A stretch of 10,004 nt of DNA, taken from NCBI GenBank assembly GCA_021775385.1, contig JAJFHW010000095.1:1-10004 (forward strand), in the 5' to 3' direction. Shown in pieces: positions 2,292 through 9,968 of this stretch (position 1 is its first letter; each line of letters opens with the position of its first letter). The notes below the pieces were generated by a model, which was not told the DNA's origin, searched no databases, and worked only from the letters and a program-made list of their open reading frames with translations. Origin of the DNA: Hyphomicrobiales bacterium (GTDB lineage Bacteria > Pseudomonadota > Alphaproteobacteria > Rhizobiales > HXMU1428-3). Both the position numbers and the translations under genes were made by a program.

Positions 2292-2837
2292 TTGTTATTC
2301 TCCCATTGAATGGCTCTTGTGCCGAGAAGGCGGAATATAAGTGAAAATTTCAAAGAGTTGAACTGCATAATTTACAATCAAGAACTTTTGTTATTTGAAG
2401 AACTTTTTTTTATACTTTGCTTCTGTCCTGTGTATATGTCTCTTTGACCAGCTAAAAAGTTCATTTTGTATCTATACTTATCGTTTTTCTTGCAATTTCT
2501 TTGTGACATGTTTGATGCATTGCACTGGCTCGTTTGTGGCTATTTTGTCACTATTTAGGGGCTAATTGCCGCGTTTGTGCCACAATAAGGTTTCATATTT
2601 TTATCTGTAGTGGAAGAAAAGTTCTGGATTTGTTATTGGGGATTATTCCCTTTATTGAGCTGGATTTTTTGTGGCTTTTTAGCGCATAGTTAATTGTTTA
2701 ATCGCTTACTTTGAGGTGGGACTTTCATGGTCTTTGCTTGGGTAAGCTTTTTACGCTATGAATTCAGCCAGTTGGCACTAAAATGCCATCAAGATAACAA
2801 GATAGTAACACCACTTTAGAAGAATTTGAGAGAGTTT
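2292..2837. promoter_or_regulatory. Divergent control region (DUF898 gene / ilvD) with four AAAAGTTC boxes
   Basis: A 546-bp AT-rich stretch without a convincing gene. The octamer AAAAGTTC occurs four times: on the minus strand at 2382-2389 and 2400-2407 (part of the 10-bp direct repeat AAGAACTTTT, period 18 bp), and on the plus strand at 2455-2462 and 2617-2624. By base composition I would expect about 0.02 copies in this span. They resemble operator half-sites for one regulator, with the inner pair in opposite orientation to the outer pair. Also present are a short palindrome TTGTGCCACAA (2575-2585) and a 5-bp hairpin TGGCA-CTAAAA-TGCCA (2773-2788) just past the predicted ilvD start of transcription. 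No Leu/Val/Ile-rich leader peptide was found. Confidence 0.35.
2734..2762 (+). promoter_or_regulatory. Candidate sigma-70-type promoter for ilvD
   Basis: A -35-like TTGCTT (2734-2739) and a -10-like TATGAA (2757-2762) are separated by 17 bp. Transcription would begin near 2769, giving a leader of about 70 nt that opens with the hairpin at 2773-2788. It is the best-spaced pair seen close to ilvD, but AT-rich sequence makes chance matches common. Confidence 0.35.
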
Positions 2838-4562
2838 ATGGACGCGAAACCATTTGATAAATCTAAATTACCAAGCCGTCATGTAACTGAAGGTCCTGAC
2901 CGGGCACCGCACCGTTCATACTATTATGCGATGGGCTTAACTGAAGAAGAAATTCATCGTCCATTTGTGGGGGTTGCTTCTTGTTGGAATGAGGCAGCGC
3001 CTTGTAATATCTCTCTTATGCGTCAGGCTCAGGCAGCAAAAGCCGGTGTTAAAGAAGCTAAGGGTACTCCTCGTGAGTTTTGCACTATCACTGTGACTGA
3101 TGGCATTGCCATGGGCCACCAGGGTATGAAGTCTTCTTTGGTCTCTCGTGAAGTTATTGCAGACTCAATTGAGCTGACTATGCGCGGTCATTGTTATGAT
3201 GCTTTGGTTGGTTTGGCTGGATGTGATAAATCTTTGCCTGGCATGATGATGGCTATGGTGCGTTTGAATGTTCCGAGTGTCTTTATGTATGGTGGTTCGA
3301 TTTTACCTGGTCGGTTTAAGGGTAAAGACGTGACTGTGGTCGATGTATTTGAAGGCGTTGGTCAGCATTCTTCTGGCAAGATGAGTACAAAAGATTTGCA
3401 TGACCTTGAATGTGTGGCTTGTCCGAGCGCTGGTTCTTGTGGTGGCCAATTTACAGCGAATACAATGGCGTGTGTTTCTGAGGCGATGGGACTTGCTTTG
3501 CCAAGTTCTTCTGGTGCGCCGGCACCTTATGAGAGCCGCGATCAATATGCAGAAGCTTCTGGCCGGCAAGTTATGGAACTTATTCAACTTGGCATTCGCC
3601 CAAGAGATATCGTGACACTTAAATCTTTAGAAAATGCAGCGACTGTTGTGGCGGCGACTGGTGGCTCGACGAATGGTGCTTTGCATTTGCCTGCCATTGC
3701 TCATGAAGCTGGCATTGAGTTTGATTTATTTGATGTTGCTGCAATCTTCAAAAAAACGCCTTATATTGCTGATCTAAAGCCAGGTGGAAAATATGTTGCA
3801 AAAGACATGTATGATGCTGGCGGCGTTCCTATGCTTATGAAGACTTTGCATGATGGTGGGTTTATACATGGTGATTGTATCACTGTGACAGGCAAGACCA
3901 TTGCTGAAAATTTAGAGGGTGTCACTTTTGATGAAACTCAAAAGGTTATGTACCCGGTGAGCAATCCAATTACACCAACGGGCGGTGTTGTAGGTTTGAA
4001 GGGCAATTTGGCACCGGATGGTGGCATTGTGAAAGTGGCCGGCATGGATATGCTTAAATTTACTGGTCCGGCTCGTTGTTATGATAGTGAAGAAGAAGCG
4101 TTTTCTGCTGTATCGAATAAAGAATATGAAGAAGGCGACGTGATTGTTATTCGCTATGAGGGCCCAAAAGGGGGACCTGGCATGCGTGAAATGCTTTCAA
4201 CCACTGCGGCTCTTTATGGACAAGGTATGGGCGAGAAGGTTGCTTTGATTACTGATGGTCGTTTTTCTGGCGGGACGCGCGGTTTTTGTATTGGTCACGT
4301 TGGGCCAGAAGCGGCTGAAGGCGGCCCGATTGGATTGTTAGAGAATGGAGATATGATCACCATTGATGCGGTCGACGGCACGTTAGATGTTGATTTATCT
4401 GAAGAGGAATTTAAGGCGCGCCGTGATAAATGGCAGCCACGCACGACTGATTATCAGTCTGGCACATTGTGGAAATTTGCACAGCAGGTTGGTCCTGCAC
4501 GTAAGGGGGCGGTGACGCACCCTGGAGGTAAAGCTGAAGTTGTTTGTTACGCAGACATATAA
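2838..4562 (+). CDS. ilvD: Dihydroxyacid dehydratase, short [2Fe-2S]-type
   Basis: Cytoplasmic enzyme (EC 4.2.1.9) that dehydrates 2,3-dihydroxy-isovalerate and -methylvalerate to the 2-oxo acids, the penultimate step of valine and isoleucine synthesis and feeding leucine and pantothenate. The 574 residues carry three conserved cysteines spaced as in [2Fe-2S] dehydratases: C56 in APCN, C129 in GCDKSLPG and C201 in [15 protein letters not shown]131 of the CDK motif is the likely carbamylated lysine, D88 in TDG a metal ligand, and S477 in GRFSGGT the likely catalytic serine. Sugar-acid dehydratases share the fold, but overall sequence and length fit IlvD. The ATG at 2838 is preferred over an in-frame TTG at 2826 because GAGAG lies directly upstream of it and it yields the usual N-terminus. 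It stands alone, not in an ilv operon; its TAA overlaps a perfect TATAAT. Confidence 0.95.
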
Positions 4563-4563
4563 T
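4558..4563 (+). promoter_or_regulatory. Perfect -10 box TATAAT over the ilvD stop codon
   Basis: TATAAT overlaps the ilvD TAA (4560-4562). Transcription would start near 4570, at the first base of the palindrome TCACT-AAA-AGTGA (4570-4582), so a transcript independent of ilvD could begin exactly with the repeat and structured region that follow. The matching -35 is poor (TGAAGT at 4535-4540, 17 bp away). A second weak pair, TTGGTC (4564-4569) and TAAGTT (4587-4592) with a 17-bp spacer, would place the same palindrome between the two boxes. Confidence 0.35.
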
Positions 4564-4570
4564 TTGGTCT

Positions 4571-4612
4571 CACTAAAAGTGAAACGTAAGTTGATGACAC
4601 TAAAGGTGAAAC
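4571..4612 (+). repeat. Two-copy 15-bp direct repeat CACTAAARGTGAAAC
   Basis: Copies at 4571-4585 (CACTAAAAGTGAAAC) and 4598-4612 (CACTAAAGGTGAAAC) differ at one base and are 27 bp apart start to start. Each is itself a small hairpin or dyad (CACT-AAA-RGTG). They may be tandem operator sites near the predicted promoter, or paired mini-hairpins at the 5' end of the structured RNA that begins directly after. Confidence 0.55.
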
Positions 4613-4710
4613 AACTGGTTGGTCTTGTCCTTTCAAATGAAGGACAAGACTGCACAGCTAAAACGGCTTGTGTATGCCGTTTGCATAAGGCTGTGCTGCT
4701 GGAACCAGTG
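4613..4710 (+). ncRNA. Candidate structured leader RNA or small RNA (three-way junction)
   Basis: Four perfect helices nest without conflict. P1 (4614-4620 with 4703-4709, ACTGGTT/AACCAGT, 7 bp) closes the structure. P2 (4622-4632 with 4640-4650, GTCTTGTCCTT and its complement, 11 bp) forms one arm with a 7-nt loop. P3 (4652-4658 with 4690-4696, GCACAGC/GCTGTGC, 7 bp) is topped by P4 (4661-4667 with 4676-4682, AAACGGC/GCCGTTT, 7 bp, 8-nt loop). That is 32 Watson-Crick pairs in about 97 nt. No U-run follows P2 or P1, so it is not an ordinary terminator of ilvD. It ends 50 nt before the RBS of the ExoR-like gene. I do not recognise a known riboswitch or sRNA family; whether it is RNA at all, and whether it acts in cis, is inference. 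Confidence 0.5.
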
Positions 4711-4759
4711 AGTTCAGTAGATGGTTGTTTATTTGGCAATAGGTTTTTTCATCGTTTTC

Positions 4760-4765
4760 AGGAGG
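4760..4765 (+). promoter_or_regulatory. Strong Shine-Dalgarno AGGAGG that sets the GTG start
   Basis: AGGAGG is followed after 8 nt by GTG at 4774, which opens a frame with an immediate signal peptide. An overlapping ATG at 4772 reads ATG-TGA, a start-stop pair served by the same site, so initiation at 4772 would be non-productive. This decides the start against an in-frame ATG at 4540 inside ilvD. Confidence 0.75.
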
Positions 4766-4773
4766 TATTCAAT

Positions 4774-6057
4774 GTGAGTGAATTATTTGTTTTACCTTCT
4801 TTGAAATCGGGTGTTGCTGCGTCTTTGGTTAAACCTCTTTTGGTTTCTCTTTTCTGTGTTGTTTTCTCCTCTTTCGCAACTGTAGCCAGTGCTGAAGATA
4901 GTCATGTTGAAAAAAGGCATGTGGAAGAGCAACGTCAATTTTATCAGAATGAAATTATTCGTGATGATGGGTCGACCTTGATTGAAGAGAAAACGATTAT
5001 CATTGAACCTCTTCCTCAAGATATTGACAAGCCACATCTTGTTGAGCCTCCTCTTGTAGAATCTGTGCCGCTTCTTAAAGATCAGAAAAAAAGGGCTTTA
5101 TCAAAATCTCTTGCAAACAACAAACGAGATAAGGCTAAGATGTCTAGTCCGCTTCGGCAGGCTTTAATCGATTATCGAGCTCAGCGCATTAAAAAGGCCA
5201 TATCTGGTCTTGAATTAGCGGCTGAGAAGAAGTCATTCCTTGCGCGTTATTTGCTTGCTCATATTTACCGGACGGGGAAGGGCGGTGTTGTTGATCATCG
5301 TAGAGCTTACGAATATTACCGCCAGATTACGACTGAATTTTCTAACGGTGGTGGGCTATATCATGCTCGTAAAGCACCTTATATTGCACATGCCTTTGTT
5401 CAGCTTGCTCGCTACATGGAAGATGGTGTGTCTGAACTTGATATTAAATCCGACCCACTTATGGCACGTGTCTTGTTTGAAAAGGCCGCACATTTTGGTG
5501 ACATTGAAGGGCAGTATCAATTAGGCCGCTTTTTGATTGAAAGTGGTAAAATGCGGAACGTGAAACTTGGCCAACAATGGTTGACTCGTGCTGCTATGAA
5601 AAATAATCCGAAAGCACAAGCTTATCTTGGTGCGTTATATTGGCAGGGTGATTTAGTATCGAGGAAGAAAAGTTTAGCACTTGCCTGGATTGAATTTGCA
5701 AGGCGGAATTCAACTGGAACTGTAAAAAGCCAAGTTGAGAGGCTGTATCGTGCTGTTCGTTATGACACGACCGAAGATGTTCATACACGGGCTGAATTTT
5801 ATATTGGCCGCTTGCGGACGAAATATAATGTTTTATGGCGTGAAGAACCTATGCGAAATAAAGAAAATGATATTCTCGATGGGATCATTTTAGCTGAGCC
5901 ACCAAAAGATTTGGATCAAGATCAGCTTGAAACCAAAAGCCATAAAAATCAAATGCCTGATGCGATGGTCAGTGGACCGGAGAGCTTTATGGACGGGGGG
6001 CCGTCTATAGGGTTTGGTTTCCAGATGTATGATTATGGCGGTGCCGCTGGGCGGTGA
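4774..6057 (+). CDS. Exported Sel1-repeat protein, ExoR-like
   Basis: A 427-residue protein with an N-terminal signal peptide (hydrophobic core about 15-38, cleavage likely after ASA at residue 40), so probably periplasmic. A charged linker of about 85 residues follows, then Sel1/TPR-like helical repeats at about 130-312; the clearest units are around 157-184, 245-277 and 280-312 (LGALYWQG). The order and spacing of these repeats, including the insert with YIAHAFVQLARYMEDGV, resemble rhizobial ExoR, the periplasmic inhibitor of the ExoS-ChvI two-component system that controls exopolysaccharide and motility. ExoR is about 268 residues, so this protein has N- and C-terminal extensions; the C-terminus ends in a Gly-rich tail. 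No exoS/chvI genes are in view. GTG start chosen for its RBS. It follows a structured 211-bp leader and ends at a strong terminator. Sel1 architecture is sure; ExoR orthology is inferred. Confidence 0.75.
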   Translation: MSELFVLPSLKSGVAASLVKPLLVSLFCVVFSSFATVASAEDSHVEKRHVEEQRQFYQNEIIRDDGSTLIEEKTIIIEPLPQDIDKPHLVEPPLVESVPLLKDQKKRALSKSLANNKRDKAKMSSPLRQALIDYRAQRIKKAISGLELAAEKKSFLARYLLAHIYRTGKGGVVDHRRAYEYYRQITTEFSNGGGLYHARKAPYIAHAFVQLARYMEDGVSELDIKSDPLMARVLFEKAAHFGDIEGQYQLGRFLIESGKMRNVKLGQQWLTRAAMKNNPKAQAYLGALYWQGDLVSRKKSLALAWIEFARRNSTGTVKSQVERLYRAVRYDTTEDVHTRAEFYIGRLRTKYNVLWREEPMRNKENDILDGIILAEPPKDLDQDQLETKSHKNQMPDAMVSGPESFMDGGPSIGFGFQMYDYGGAAGR

Positions 6058-6076: not shown

Positions 6077-6123
6077 TAAATAAAAAACCCCACCAATTTC
6101 TAATTGGTGGGGTTTTTTATTTA
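6077..6123. terminator. Bidirectional intrinsic terminator between convergent genes
   Basis: The core arms 6088-6098 and 6102-6112 (CCCCACCAATT and its complement) form 11 perfect pairs around a TCT loop, flanked by six A on the left and six T on the right, so the dyad extends through 6077-6123. It works as a U-tailed terminator on both strands. The stop codon of exodeoxyribonuclease III (6121-6123) lies inside the outer part of the dyad, 19 bp beyond the ExoR-like stop on the other side. Confidence 0.93.
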
Positions 6124-6903
6124 GACATCTAACTCAATCCAGATGGGGACATGGTCTGATGGTTTTTCCCAGCCTCTTGTCATGCGGTCTATTTCGCAAT
6201 GGCTCAGTTTGTCTGTTGCTTGTGGCGATAAGAGTAGGTGGTCAATGCGGATACCGTTATCTTTGTTCCAGGCGCCGGCTTGATAATCCCAAAATGTATA
6301 TTTATGTGCCTTGTTGATGGTGGCTTCAAAAGCACTAGTTAGCCCTAAGTTGAGAATGGCATGATAGGCTGCTTTTGACTGAGGGAGATAGAGAGCATCG
6401 TCTAACCAATTAGAGGCGTCATACACGTCTTTGTCGGTTGGGATGATGTTATAATCGCCCGCTAAAACGAGAGGTTCTTCATATTTTAATAAATTGGCGG
6501 CGTGGTTTTTTAGATGCTCCATCCACTCTAGTTTGTAAGGATATTTGGGGGTATCTATTGGGTTGCCATTGGGGAGATATATAGACGCCACGCGTATGGC
6601 ACCAGTTTCAGTTGAAATGACAGCTTCTAAATATCTGGCTTGTTCATCAGCTTCATTGCCAGGTAAGCCTTTTATAACTTCATCAAATGGGAATTTTGAG
6701 AGTATGGCTACACCATTGAAACTCTTTTGACCGTGAACAGCCACGTTGTAGCCCATTGCTTCAAAGACCTCTGAGGGGAAGTTTTCTGAAACTGATTTAA
6801 CTTCTTGTAGGCAGGCTATGTCCGGGTTGGCTTCTTGCAACCACCTCTCTAAATTAGGTAATCTGGCTTTGATGCCGTTGATATTCCAAGTTGCAATTTT
6901 CAT
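6121..6903 (-). CDS. xthA: Exodeoxyribonuclease III (AP endonuclease, EEP family)
   Basis: Base-excision-repair enzyme (EC 3.1.11.2) that cuts at abasic sites and trims 3' blocks and 3'-5' from duplex DNA, Mg-dependent, in the cytoplasm. The 260 residues span the full endonuclease/exonuclease/phosphatase fold and match the E. coli enzyme almost residue for residue at catalytic sites: N7 in WNINGIK, E34 in LQEVK, Y109 in IYLPNG, D150 and N152 in GDYN, D221 in RIDH and the D250-H251 pair in SDHVPIW. Length is typical. The start ATG (6901-6903) has only a weak AAGAAAG upstream. It is convergent with the ExoR-like gene and shares its terminator; a GC-rich repeat-like island begins 62 bp upstream of its start, where its promoter should lie. 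Bacteria often keep two Xth paralogues, so the symbol names the family. Confidence 0.93.
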   Translation of the reverse strand: MKIATWNINGIKARLPNLERWLQEANPDIACLQEVKSVSENFPSEVFEAMGYNVAVHGQKSFNGVAILSKFPFDEVIKGLPGNEADEQARYLEAVISTETGAIRVASIYLPNGNPIDTPKYPYKLEWMEHLKNHAANLLKYEEPLVLAGDYNIIPTDKDVYDASNWLDDALYLPQSKAAYHAILNLGLTSAFEATINKAHKYTFWDYQAGAWNKDNGIRIDHLLLSPQATDKLSHCEIDRMTRGWEKPSDHVPIWIELDV

Positions 6904-7268: not shown

Positions 7269-7304
7269 GTTTTTTAAGGATGGGTTTGTTTGAGGGGGCT
7301 ATTT

Positions 7305-8159
7305 ATGACGAGTTTGGGGCATTCTGGTTTAGGGCATTCCAGTTTGAGACATGCCAGTTTAGGTATGGGGATTTTAAGTTGGCGGGATCGTTTGTCTTTA
7401 GAAAATGCTTTAAAAAGCTATCGGGATCAAAACCTTCTTTCTCTTTTTGACCAAACACATGTATTTTTTTCTGAACAATCTCCTGAAGATCATGCTTTGG
7501 CAGCTGAATTTGGCGTTTCGTCCTCTGGTGCTGATGAGAATTTAGGTATATTGGGCGGCTTTGAAGCGCTGGGTCAGGCTATGGAAACGGATTATATTGT
7601 TCTGGTTGAGAATGATTGTCCGTTGATTGAAAATTTTGAGGAAGCTAAAGCTCAAATAGAGGCGTCTCAACGTTTGCTTGAAAGTGGTGATGTTCAGATT
7701 GTTCGCTTGAGAAGCTTGAGAGACCCTGGTGAACTTTTTAATACTGTTGATAAATATAAGCGCATGCATGGAAATTCACTTTCCTCATTTATGAAACGTT
7801 TCTTTAGGCGAAAGAAAGCCCGCGCACTCACTGGCATTGCTCCTTATGTTGAGGAGAGCCCACATGCTAAATTTCCTTCGCAAGTTTTATTGACGAATGA
7901 GGCATCAGAATTAGGGCCGATTTATAAAGTTGATACGCGTTTTTTAAACTGGACCAATCAATCGATTATGATGAAGCGAGATTTTTTTCTGAGCCAGGTG
8001 ATTGATTATGCAAAAACTGCGAATACAACACGGCGTGTAAACGGCTTTCGTAATTTGGAGATTGAAATGAATTCATCTCATTGGCGGAATAATGATTGGT
8101 ATGTTGGAATGCCACAAGGGTTGTTTACTCACCAGCGGGTTGGCATTCGAGGGTATTAG
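7305..8159 (+). CDS. GT-A-like glycosyltransferase family protein
   Basis: A 284-residue soluble protein that reads like a GT-A/family-2-type glycosyltransferase: MGILSW and an ALxSY helix near the N-terminus, a nucleotide-sugar-binding-like NLGILGGFEAL at about 79-89, and VLVENDCPLIE at about 99-109, where the acidic END takes the place of the metal-binding DxD. The acceptor and sugar are not predictable; a role in surface polysaccharide or LPS is a guess from the family. ATG at 7305 is chosen for the GAGGGGG RBS just upstream, rather than an in-frame TTG at 7290. Residues 3-22 are four copies of a pentapeptide-like unit (SLGHS, GLGHS, SLRHA, SLGMG) from a 15-bp DNA repeat, apparently expanding an ancestral SLGMGILSW start. 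No membrane segment or signal peptide. The stop codon lies in a 13-bp tandem duplication. Monocistronic by spacing. Confidence 0.65.
   Translation: MTSLGHSGLGHSSLRHASLGMGILSWRDRLSLENALKSYRDQNLLSLFDQTHVFFSEQSPEDHALAAEFGVSSSGADENLGILGGFEALGQAMETDYIVLVENDCPLIENFEEAKAQIEASQRLLESGDVQIVRLRSLRDPGELFNTVDKYKRMHGNSLSSFMKRFFRRKKARALTGIAPYVEESPHAKFPSQVLLTNEASELGPIYKVDTRFLNWTNQSIMMKRDFFLSQVIDYAKTANTTRRVNGFRNLEIEMNSSHWRNNDWYVGMPQGLFTHQRVGIRGY
7311..7370 (+). repeat. 15-bp imperfect tandem repeat, four units, in the glycosyltransferase N-terminus
   Basis: Units at 7311-7325, 7326-7340, 7341-7355 and 7356-7370 follow the pattern RGTTTRRGGCATTCY with increasing divergence to the right. The period is a multiple of three, so unit gain or loss keeps the frame and only changes the length of the N-terminal (S/G)LGHS run. 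Replication slippage is the likely origin. Confidence 0.7.
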
Positions 8160-8295: not shown

Positions 8296-9477
8296 ATGGG
8301 TACTTTTCGTTTTCTTATCGTTTTTTTGGGACTGTTTTTATATTCATCTCATCCGGTTTTGGCTGAGACAAGAATTGCGCTTGTGATTGGCAATGGAGAT
8401 TACCAAAGTGGTTCTAAACTTGATAACCCGGTCAATGATGCAAACCTTATGACAAAGACTTTAAGAGGCGCTGGATTTCAAGTGACGAGAGTTGTAAACG
8501 CTGATCGTTTTCAAATGCGTAAGGCGATGCTGGATTATAGCCGGCAATTAACAAACTCGAATACGATTGGCGTTTTTTATTATGCTGGCCATGGGATTCA
8601 GGTGGATGGTCAAAATTTTTTATTGCCGATTGATGCGTCTCCCGCTCGCAAAGATGAACTTTCATTGCATGGGGTAGCGTTAAGTGAGTTTCTACGAACA
8701 TTGAATGCTGTTAGCGGCTCTGAAGGACGGCTTAATGTTGTTATTTTAGATGCGTGCCGAAATAACCCTTTTGCGCGAGGATGGCGTTCTGCTAATCGGG
8801 GGTTAGCTACGATTGATGCGCCAAGTGGAACTTTAATTGCTTTTGCAACGGCACCAGGTGATGTGGCGGCCGATGGAGATGGTGTGAACAGTCCTTATAC
8901 TTTGGCTCTCGCGCAAATGATTAAAAAACCAGGTCTTGCTATTGAGCAAACATTTAAAGGCGCGCGGAATTTGGTTTGGGAATGGACGAAGCAATCTGGT
9001 AAAGCGCAGATCCCTTGGGAGAGTACGTCTTTGCGGGGGGATTTTTATTTCACGCCAGGGGTGGCTGTTTCTAAGACAACCAAGAAGAATGCTTCACCTA
9101 AAAACACGGCTGTTGATCATAAGAGGCCTTTAATCGAGAAGAAGCAGGCGGCAATTGTGAAACCTATTCCTAAATCCAAAGAGATTAAAAAGGGCGACTG
9201 TCCTTCTGTTGGCTCACCCCTTGATCGCGTAGTTCCAATTGTTCCGGGGAAAATAATTTGTTCGAAGGATAAGAAGCATAAAGCGGTTATTAAGATCATT
9301 CGTAAAAGAGCGATTGTTTTTTCAGTGAATGGTGAGAAAAATGTTGTTTGCTCTATCAAAGACCTTTGTCAATTTAATTGGCCTGGGGCGCCTTTGTTTG
9401 GTGTTGATATTTCACCTGTGAGTAAAAGCGGCACTCATAGTTATAAATATAAAGGCGCTCTTCGTGCGCCACGTTAA
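8296..9477 (+). CDS. Exported caspase-fold (peptidase C14, p20) protein
   Basis: A 393-residue predicted secreted or periplasmic cysteine protease of the bacterial caspase-like group. A signal peptide covers residues 1-23 (cleavage after VLA). The p20 domain starts at once with RIALVIGNGDY, followed by the LDNPVNDANLM helix, the catalytic histidine H99 in YYAGHGIQ, the NFLLPID strand, and the catalytic cysteine C154 in ILDACRNNPF; it runs to about residue 250 (RGDFYFTPG). A Lys/Pro-rich linker (about 255-298) leads to a C-terminal part of about 90 residues with four cysteines and alternating charged and hydrophobic strands that I cannot assign. The His/Cys dyad is intact, so activity, probably after basic residues as in orthocaspases, is plausible but unproven. 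The RBS is poor. It precedes a second exported gene by 32 bp, probably co-transcribed. Confidence 0.85.
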   Translation: MGTFRFLIVFLGLFLYSSHPVLAETRIALVIGNGDYQSGSKLDNPVNDANLMTKTLRGAGFQVTRVVNADRFQMRKAMLDYSRQLTNSNTIGVFYYAGHGIQVDGQNFLLPIDASPARKDELSLHGVALSEFLRTLNAVSGSEGRLNVVILDACRNNPFARGWRSANRGLATIDAPSGTLIAFATAPGDVAADGDGVNSPYTLALAQMIKKPGLAIEQTFKGARNLVWEWTKQSGKAQIPWESTSLRGDFYFTPGVAVSKTTKKNASPKNTAVDHKRPLIEKKQAAIVKPIPKSKEIKKGDCPSVGSPLDRVVPIVPGKIICSKDKKHKAVIKIIRKRAIVFSVNGEKNVVCSIKDLCQFNWPGAPLFGVDISPVSKSGTHSYKYKGALRAPR

Positions 9478-9509: not shown

Positions 9510-9968
9510 ATGTTTTTAAAATTTCGCGTTTTTGTTCTGAGTTTGCTTGTGTTTGGAGTCGTTACGACAACTGCGAGTGCTATCACAGTGGCAAAGCAAG
9601 ACCAAGCGAAGTTGGTGCCTGTGAAAAATGCGATGCTTCATAAAGTTGCTGAAGCTTTGTTGCACCGTGTCGAAGGCGGTGTGTTTCAAGTGCAGGTTGG
9701 ACAATCTATGGATATGACTGAGCGAAAAATTTTGCTGACGTTTCGTGGGCTTTATGGACAAAAAAGAAATGCGGCTGAAAAGAAAATTTTGATCACGATT
9801 AATGGTGATTCAGAAATAGTGATGCCAGGGAAGCGAATTAATTTACTCAAGCATAAAATCGCGAGTAAATCTTTAGAGGGCTATTCAGAGTGTTTTGTGG
9901 ATTACGTTGGATTGACCACGCCTAAAGGCGTTCCTGCAAAAGCGACGTTTCGATTACACTGTGAGTGA
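9510..9968 (+). CDS. Small exported protein of unknown function, next to the caspase-like gene
   Basis: I do not recognise this 152-residue protein. A clear signal peptide (hydrophobic core about 7-19, cleavage after ASA at residue 24) predicts export. The mature part of about 128 residues looks mixed: an amphipathic helix around 38-54 (VKNAMLHKVAEALLHRVEGG), then alternating strands (FQVQVG, KILLTFRG, KKILITING, ATFRLHCE). Two cysteines, in SECFVDY and at the second-last residue, could form a disulphide. The ATG has GAAGAGG 9 nt upstream. The gene follows the caspase-like gene by 32 bp on the same strand with no terminator between, so a common transcript and a functional link (substrate, inhibitor or partner) are reasonable guesses. 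Both products have strand-rich C-termini, but I see no convincing sequence match between them. No hairpin terminator is visible in the last 36 bases. Confidence 0.72.
   Translation: MFLKFRVFVLSLLVFGVVTTTASAITVAKQDQAKLVPVKNAMLHKVAEALLHRVEGGVFQVQVGQSMDMTERKILLTFRGLYGQKRNAAEKKILITINGDSEIVMPGKRINLLKHKIASKSLEGYSECFVDYVGLTTPKGVPAKATFRLHCE

Follow-up and report, generated by a model that had tools for sequence, protein, structure and literature searches.

Stem-loops between cistrons, including those of translational coupling, occur in bacterial operons. Rickettsia palindromic elements are hairpin-forming DNA inserted in frame in protein genes. In Rhizobiales, exoR encodes a periplasmic Sel1-repeat regulator of ExoS/ChvI. 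The excerpted text of PMC4550343 names xthA, on the opposite strand, as the sole consistent neighbour of ExoR orthologues in that order and gives S. meliloti ExoR a length of 268 aa. Here we report on the junction between ilvD and an exoR-like gene in a draft genome of a Hyphomicrobiales bacterium (2.88 Mb, about 79% complete); the window, meaning the whole stretch of DNA analysed, is one entire contig of 10,004 nucleotides.

The exoR-like frame overlaps ilvD

The upstream gene is assigned to ilvD by TIGR00110 (697 bits, cutoff 618) and also matches PF00920 and PF24877 (Table 1). The downstream protein carries Sel1 repeats (Pfam), but scores 58.3 bits with the NCBIfam ExoR model NF045484 against a cutoff of 450, in a match covering residues 210-376 of 505 only, and by that measure it is no ExoR equivalog. 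Its 33 closest homologues have 368-509 aa, and a viral collection held no relative of it. The gene is best named ExoR-like, as a likely positional counterpart of exoR and not an equivalog. Farther along the window lie a 289-aa open reading frame (7290-8159) that has neither a Pfam nor an NCBIfam match and carries a short repetitive N-terminal stretch (SLGHSGLGHSSLRHASLG), a Caspase-domain (Peptidase_C14) protein that by eye looks secreted (8296-9477) and, beside the latter, a 152-aa open reading frame with no family match (9510-9968).

Table 1. Coordinates of the genes, start signals and RNA helices at the junction
Feature	Position	Strand	Remarks
ilvD (dihydroxy-acid dehydratase)	2826..4562	+	exact start uncertain; stop TAA 4560-4562
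GGAGG, Shine-Dalgarno-like, within ilvD	4524..4528	+	at -39 in 8/8 genus genomes
exoR-like Sel1-repeat gene, open frame	4540..6057	+	candidate TTG start 4540-4542
27-nt tandem repeat, in frame, two copies	4560..4612	+	4560-4585, 4587-4612; 81% identity, spacing 27
Hairpin A, 7-pair stem	4567..4585	+	one mismatch in own genome; CG, UG, UA pair in G000, G003, G002
Hairpin B, short, weakly supported	4597..4609	+	93% of cells paired, no two-sided change
P1, closing helix of three-way junction (4614-4620/4703-4709)	4614..4709	+	3' arm within extra stretch
Hairpin P2, core 4622-4632/4640-4650, extends to 14 pairs	4620..4652	+	
Extra stretch, about 40-45 codons, in frame	4651..4773 (approximate boundaries)	+	absent from 7 other genomes
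P3 (4652-4659/4689-4696) around P4 (4661-4667/4676-4682)	4652..4696	+	
AGGAGG and in-frame GTG, possible internal start	4760..4776	+	read from sequence; 4760-4765 / 4774-4776
xthA (exodeoxyribonuclease III), convergent neighbour	6121..6903	-	TIGR00633 234 bits, cutoff 99

The first-pass annotation had placed the structure in a 211-bp intergenic gap. There is no such non-coding gap: the exoR-like frame is free of stop codons from within ilvD through the whole of the Sel1-repeat protein, and initiation at the candidate TTG would give it an overlap of 23 nt with ilvD. In the seven other genomes of the genus the Sel1 gene likewise follows ilvD, and in all eight its frame is open from within ilvD and stays open despite length changes, the pattern of a coding N-terminus, while the remaining two frames close at 0-44 codons. 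A structured RNA should not be called intergenic until the frame of the gene downstream has been checked for stops.

The eight genomes also share a start region for the exoR-like gene, made up of the GGAGG within ilvD and a TTG at -23 that is common to all eight genomes. Over the last ten ilvD codons, compared in seven genomes (all but G001, whose locus has just the end of ilvD), synonymous variation is found at 2/7 sites, and 0/290 windows are as low. The signal is weaker over the last 15, 20 and 25 codons (18/285, 41/280 and 53/275 windows as low) and within the four closest species only (12/290). For comparison outside the genus, 59 of 61 genomes of the order had a Sel1 match, which less the eight of the genus leaves 51; loci were made for 22 of these (L014-L035), and 6 loci with no ilvD in reach were set aside. 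Among the 16 that remained, 13 have an in-frame ATG at -14 that overlaps ilvD, with no stop codon intervening. The position of that ATG (4549-4551 in the window) reads ACG in seven of the eight genus genomes and TTG in G004, and the conserved TTG stands nine bases upstream of it, an apparent start-codon shift in the genus.

Several homologues (P0003, P0009, P0010, P0015, P0016, P0017, P0020, P0022 and P0031) start with MFVTQT or MFVTLT, which is what initiation at TTG would yield; these are predicted proteins, and DNA was compared only where the genome had been fetched, as for P0017 (G005). In P0031 this N-terminus runs straight into what by eye is an ordinary signal peptide. The start codon of the exoR-like gene may be the TTG or one just past ilvD.

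Fold strength and recurrence at the junction

The four helices proposed in the first-pass annotation nest as described within the minimum-energy fold of 4605-4715, with P3 extendable to 4652-4659/4689-4696. This fold has an energy of -49 kcal/mol (z = -6.25), which 0/200 shuffles equalled. P2 (z = -5.56) and P3/P4 (z = -3.86), each folded by itself, were likewise as stable in none of 200 shuffles, and synonymous recoding of 4615-4710 reached the observed energy in 0/1000 trials. For 4563-4773 as a whole, z is -3.27 (1/200 shuffles as stable), and its minimum-energy fold keeps P2, P3 and P4 and replaces P1 with other pairs. Taken whole, 4651-4773 is unremarkable (z = -1.12; 31/200 shuffles and 213/1000 recodings); its P3/P4 portion is unusually stable (6/1000 recodings).

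That the element matches no known class is borne out by Rfam, which gave 0 matches at the gathering score across the window; at E <= 1 the single match in 4500-4800 is to a miRNA family on the minus strand, at 20.4 of 98 bits. The titles and abstract openings listed by literature searches yielded no structured RNA at an ilvD/exoR junction. The analysis supports a folded RNA that is real and uncatalogued, with helices far beyond chance.

Strong pairing recurs at the same place in the genus. The 108 nt past the ilvD stop give dinucleotide-shuffle z values of -3.8 (G000), -4.0 (G002), -4.5 (G003), -4.3 (G005), -3.4 (G004) and -6.65 (G001), so that six of the eight genomes lie at or below -3.4; G006 (-1.29) and G007 (-1.18) are not significant by this shuffling. 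Under synonymous recoding, p is at most 0.026 in seven of the eight and 0.385 in G007. Such values are rare in the background, 400 kb from four congeners with simple ORF calling and 60 shuffles per window, where 5/317 windows reach z <= -3.3 (0/29 overlapping junctions, 2/144 coding, 3/144 gene starts). Ranked within its locus, the best local hairpin has p <= 0.045 in five of the eight genomes (Fisher 6e-5, over species that are not independent), and G003, G007 and G001 are unremarkable by this measure. In G001 (L013), the genus extreme in z, the junction stem spans an ATG that would yield MRELRRS.

Conservation across the order was considered and rejected. Hairpin ranks at the 16 order-level loci looked significant (Fisher 3e-6) with many of the stretches GC-rich, but the dinucleotide control leaves just 2/16 at z <= -3.3. 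Within the genus, hairpins from species other than G000, G002 and G003 show no apparent sequence relationship, apart from a partial likeness in G006, which leaves their common descent unproven. Unrelated hairpins at one place can be read either as pairing that is selected while the sequence drifts, or as a place that keeps making palindromes.

Covariation and the alternative explanations

G000, G002 and G003 have homologous P2 hairpins, in which 42/42 cells are paired (14 pairs in three sequences). Four of the P2 pairs show two-sided changes; another four differ on one side only, always with a G-U. Hairpin A contributes one further pair to the covariation (Table 1). Across the three genomes, the 26-pair structure is 97.4% paired with 5 double changes, against 41-52% paired and 0 to 2 double changes after register shifts of 1-3 columns. 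The observed covariation was matched in 2/500 shuffles for all 26 pairs and in 9/500 for the P2 core. A null of transitions only kept all 14 P2 pairs in 4.9% of trials, and kept them with four or more double changes in 0.8%; with any base allowed, the figure is about 2 in 100,000. We take this as moderate evidence for conserved pairing, coming as it does from three related sequences. Of the four helices, the test for covariation suggested at the outset covered P2; P3, P4 and the 3' arm of P1 were found in no other fetched DNA. A covariance model (R1) of 4560-4653, the part common to G002 and G003, matches the junctions of G000, G002, G003 and G006 at E 2e-4 or better, with three further matches at E 0.33-0.91 (up to 150 first-pass candidates scored per genome).

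G002 and G003 differ synonymously at 1/26 shared N-terminal codons versus 87/331 elsewhere, a deficit that could be explained by local recombination. The other five species pairs have no clear deficit (G000-G002, for example, 4/17 vs 107/356), so synonymous constraint is not general, and in all of these five DNA conservation is lower in the N-terminal part than in the remainder. A regulon marked by hairpin A was tried and dropped: TTTCAYYAAAARTGAAA, at up to two mismatches, has 15-53 matches per genome in all eight genomes, with no grouping among the matches listed; the reversed-pattern control was lower, but its base order differs and no conclusion is drawn from it.

A serious alternative, which we nonetheless think unlikely, is that the hairpins are functionless by-products of mutation in a permissive n-region, where template switching makes and repairs inverted repeats. 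According to the excerpted text of PMC8794818, template switching is able to create and maintain RNA hairpins; at this junction the hairpin sequences differ among species, three of the four double changes in P2 lie side by side, and the tandem repeat together with the in-frame length changes marks an indel-prone region. The G-U pairs counter this only in part: all four P2 double changes can be reached through G-U, and G-U pairs, which template copying would not itself make, stand in extant stems. Recurrence in six of eight genomes is also hard to obtain by mutation alone, when none of the 29 overlapping junctions sampled in four of them shows such a fold. The tandem repeat itself encodes xLVSLKVKR/KLMTLKVKQ and is present as a single copy in G006, and the n-region thus lengthens and shortens by whole codons.

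The window's own lineage adds the extra stretch, counted relative to G002, G003 and G006, within which P3, P4 and the 3' arm of P1 fall. Among the 33 closest homologous proteins it occurs only in P0001 (493 aa, 95% identical), which has two amino-acid changes in 4622-4773, at codons 4675 and 4702, and 20 differences in the following 428 residues. If the two changes are single-base, they would hit unpaired bases, a comparison of low power as judged from the protein.

The strong AGGAGG and GTG noted downstream are present in the sequence, and translation in this lineage could begin at the GTG (4774), leaving 4563-4773 as a structured, untranslated controlling leader. The AGGAGG, 8 nt and in-frame GTG are followed by what by eye is a signal peptide, 50 nt lie between the end of the three-way junction and this internal start signal, and G006 has a comparable AGGAG at +94 with an in-frame TTG at +103. 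We nevertheless find a leader distinctly doubtful: the frame has no stop across the stretch in any of the eight genomes, the two changes in P0001 come at about the rate seen elsewhere in that protein, whose gene is called from an upstream ATG, and there is no promoter-like site. The earlier suggestion of a cis element of the exoR-like gene remains plausible, though less so as an untranslated leader than as an element translated within a pair of overlapping genes.

It is very improbable that the extra stretch is an in-frame palindromic mobile element inserted in the gene, akin to those of Rickettsia. It forms hairpins, lies in frame and is missing from the seven other genomes, but of the several copies that such an origin implies only the one was found, with no second copy in the window's own genome (about 79% complete) or in the genus, the best stray genus match being E 0.02 over 24 nt, and phages and plasmids gave only short matches (1 and 3 records, E 0.5). 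Model R1 does not span the extra stretch and has no bearing on this question. Some short genus matches to the stretch perhaps lie at one common place in several congeners.

Least probable of all is a separate small RNA with the TATAAT at 4555-4560 as its promoter, since for all the stability of the fold those letters, present as first described, are the ATA-TAA of ilvD plus a T and not promoter-like, the other seven genomes have G or A after the ilvD TAA and hence no TATAAT, no sigma-70-like promoter (0 sites on both strands of 4300-5000, the TATAAT having no -35 partner) and no intrinsic terminator (0 sites at the window's ilvD/exoR-like junction) was found, and the stretch lies in the downstream frame in 8/8 genomes. 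The reported lack of a terminator-like U-run holds, and it argues against intrinsic termination.

A proposed translated stem-loop region and its relation to known systems

Based on these observations, we propose, at a probability of roughly 0.4, a region of stem-loops that is translated and lies where the two cistrons overlap, with a function that would be regulatory. Strong but differing hairpins stand at this junction in most related species examined, a recurrence that suggests a structural element which is translated. That it is translated is argued by P0001, whose predicted protein carries the extra stretch, and by the overlapping in-frame ATG at 13/16 loci of the order; that the RNA is constrained is argued by the z values (6/8), the recoding (7/8), the rarity of such folds in the background, the P2 covariation with G-U intermediates and the G002-G003 codons.

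Comparison of the genomes suggests that ribosomes enter the exoR-like frame within or just after ilvD. The RNA would encode a long, variable n-region ahead of the signal peptide, with the base pairing itself kept, and in the window's own lineage an in-frame insertion would have brought P3/P4, the partner strand of P1 and the internal AGGAGG-GTG. The hairpin would mark the ilvD/exoR boundary on one common mRNA, where it may slow or partly uncouple translation of the regulator and may shield ilvD mRNA from 3' decay; slowed or uncoupled translation and protection of the enzyme's mRNA would together yield little regulator per enzyme. We infer that this fast-evolving junction stem-loop probably sets exoR-like expression relative to ilvD. 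A bolder version, which we regard as quite unlikely, would make it a genus-wide translated RNA switch, in which the hairpin keeps its position but not its sequence and ties production of the periplasmic regulator to translation of ilvD, which encodes an enzyme of branched-chain amino acids; in the window's own lineage it would have gained a three-way junction and, at GTG 4774, a second start gated by structure.

Were the pairing under selection, the junction would hold an RNA element concealed in protein-coding sequence, at an overlap between a gene of metabolism and one for an envelope regulator. Searches for RNA by sequence would miss such an element, since what persists is its place and strength and not its sequence.

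Each known system shares some of these features. The downstream gene resembles exoR in its Sel1 repeats, its convergent xthA (the arrangement given in the excerpted text of PMC4550343) and its apparent signal peptide, judged by eye, but differs in a weak model match (58 vs 450 bits) and longer proteins (368-509 vs 268 aa). Rickettsia palindromic elements are likewise in-frame, hairpin-forming insertions, whereas the one here is single-copy as far as searched. The template-switching hairpins of PMC8794818 share stems with multibase compensatory change; in the excerpted text of that paper they concern RNA genes, whereas these stems lie in an open reading frame and contain G-U pairs. Compared with the stem-loops of intercistronic coupling, the one described here falls within the downstream gene's open frame and has a sequence common to three or four species only, but like them it is a stem-loop with no U-run, placed where two same-strand cistrons overlap.
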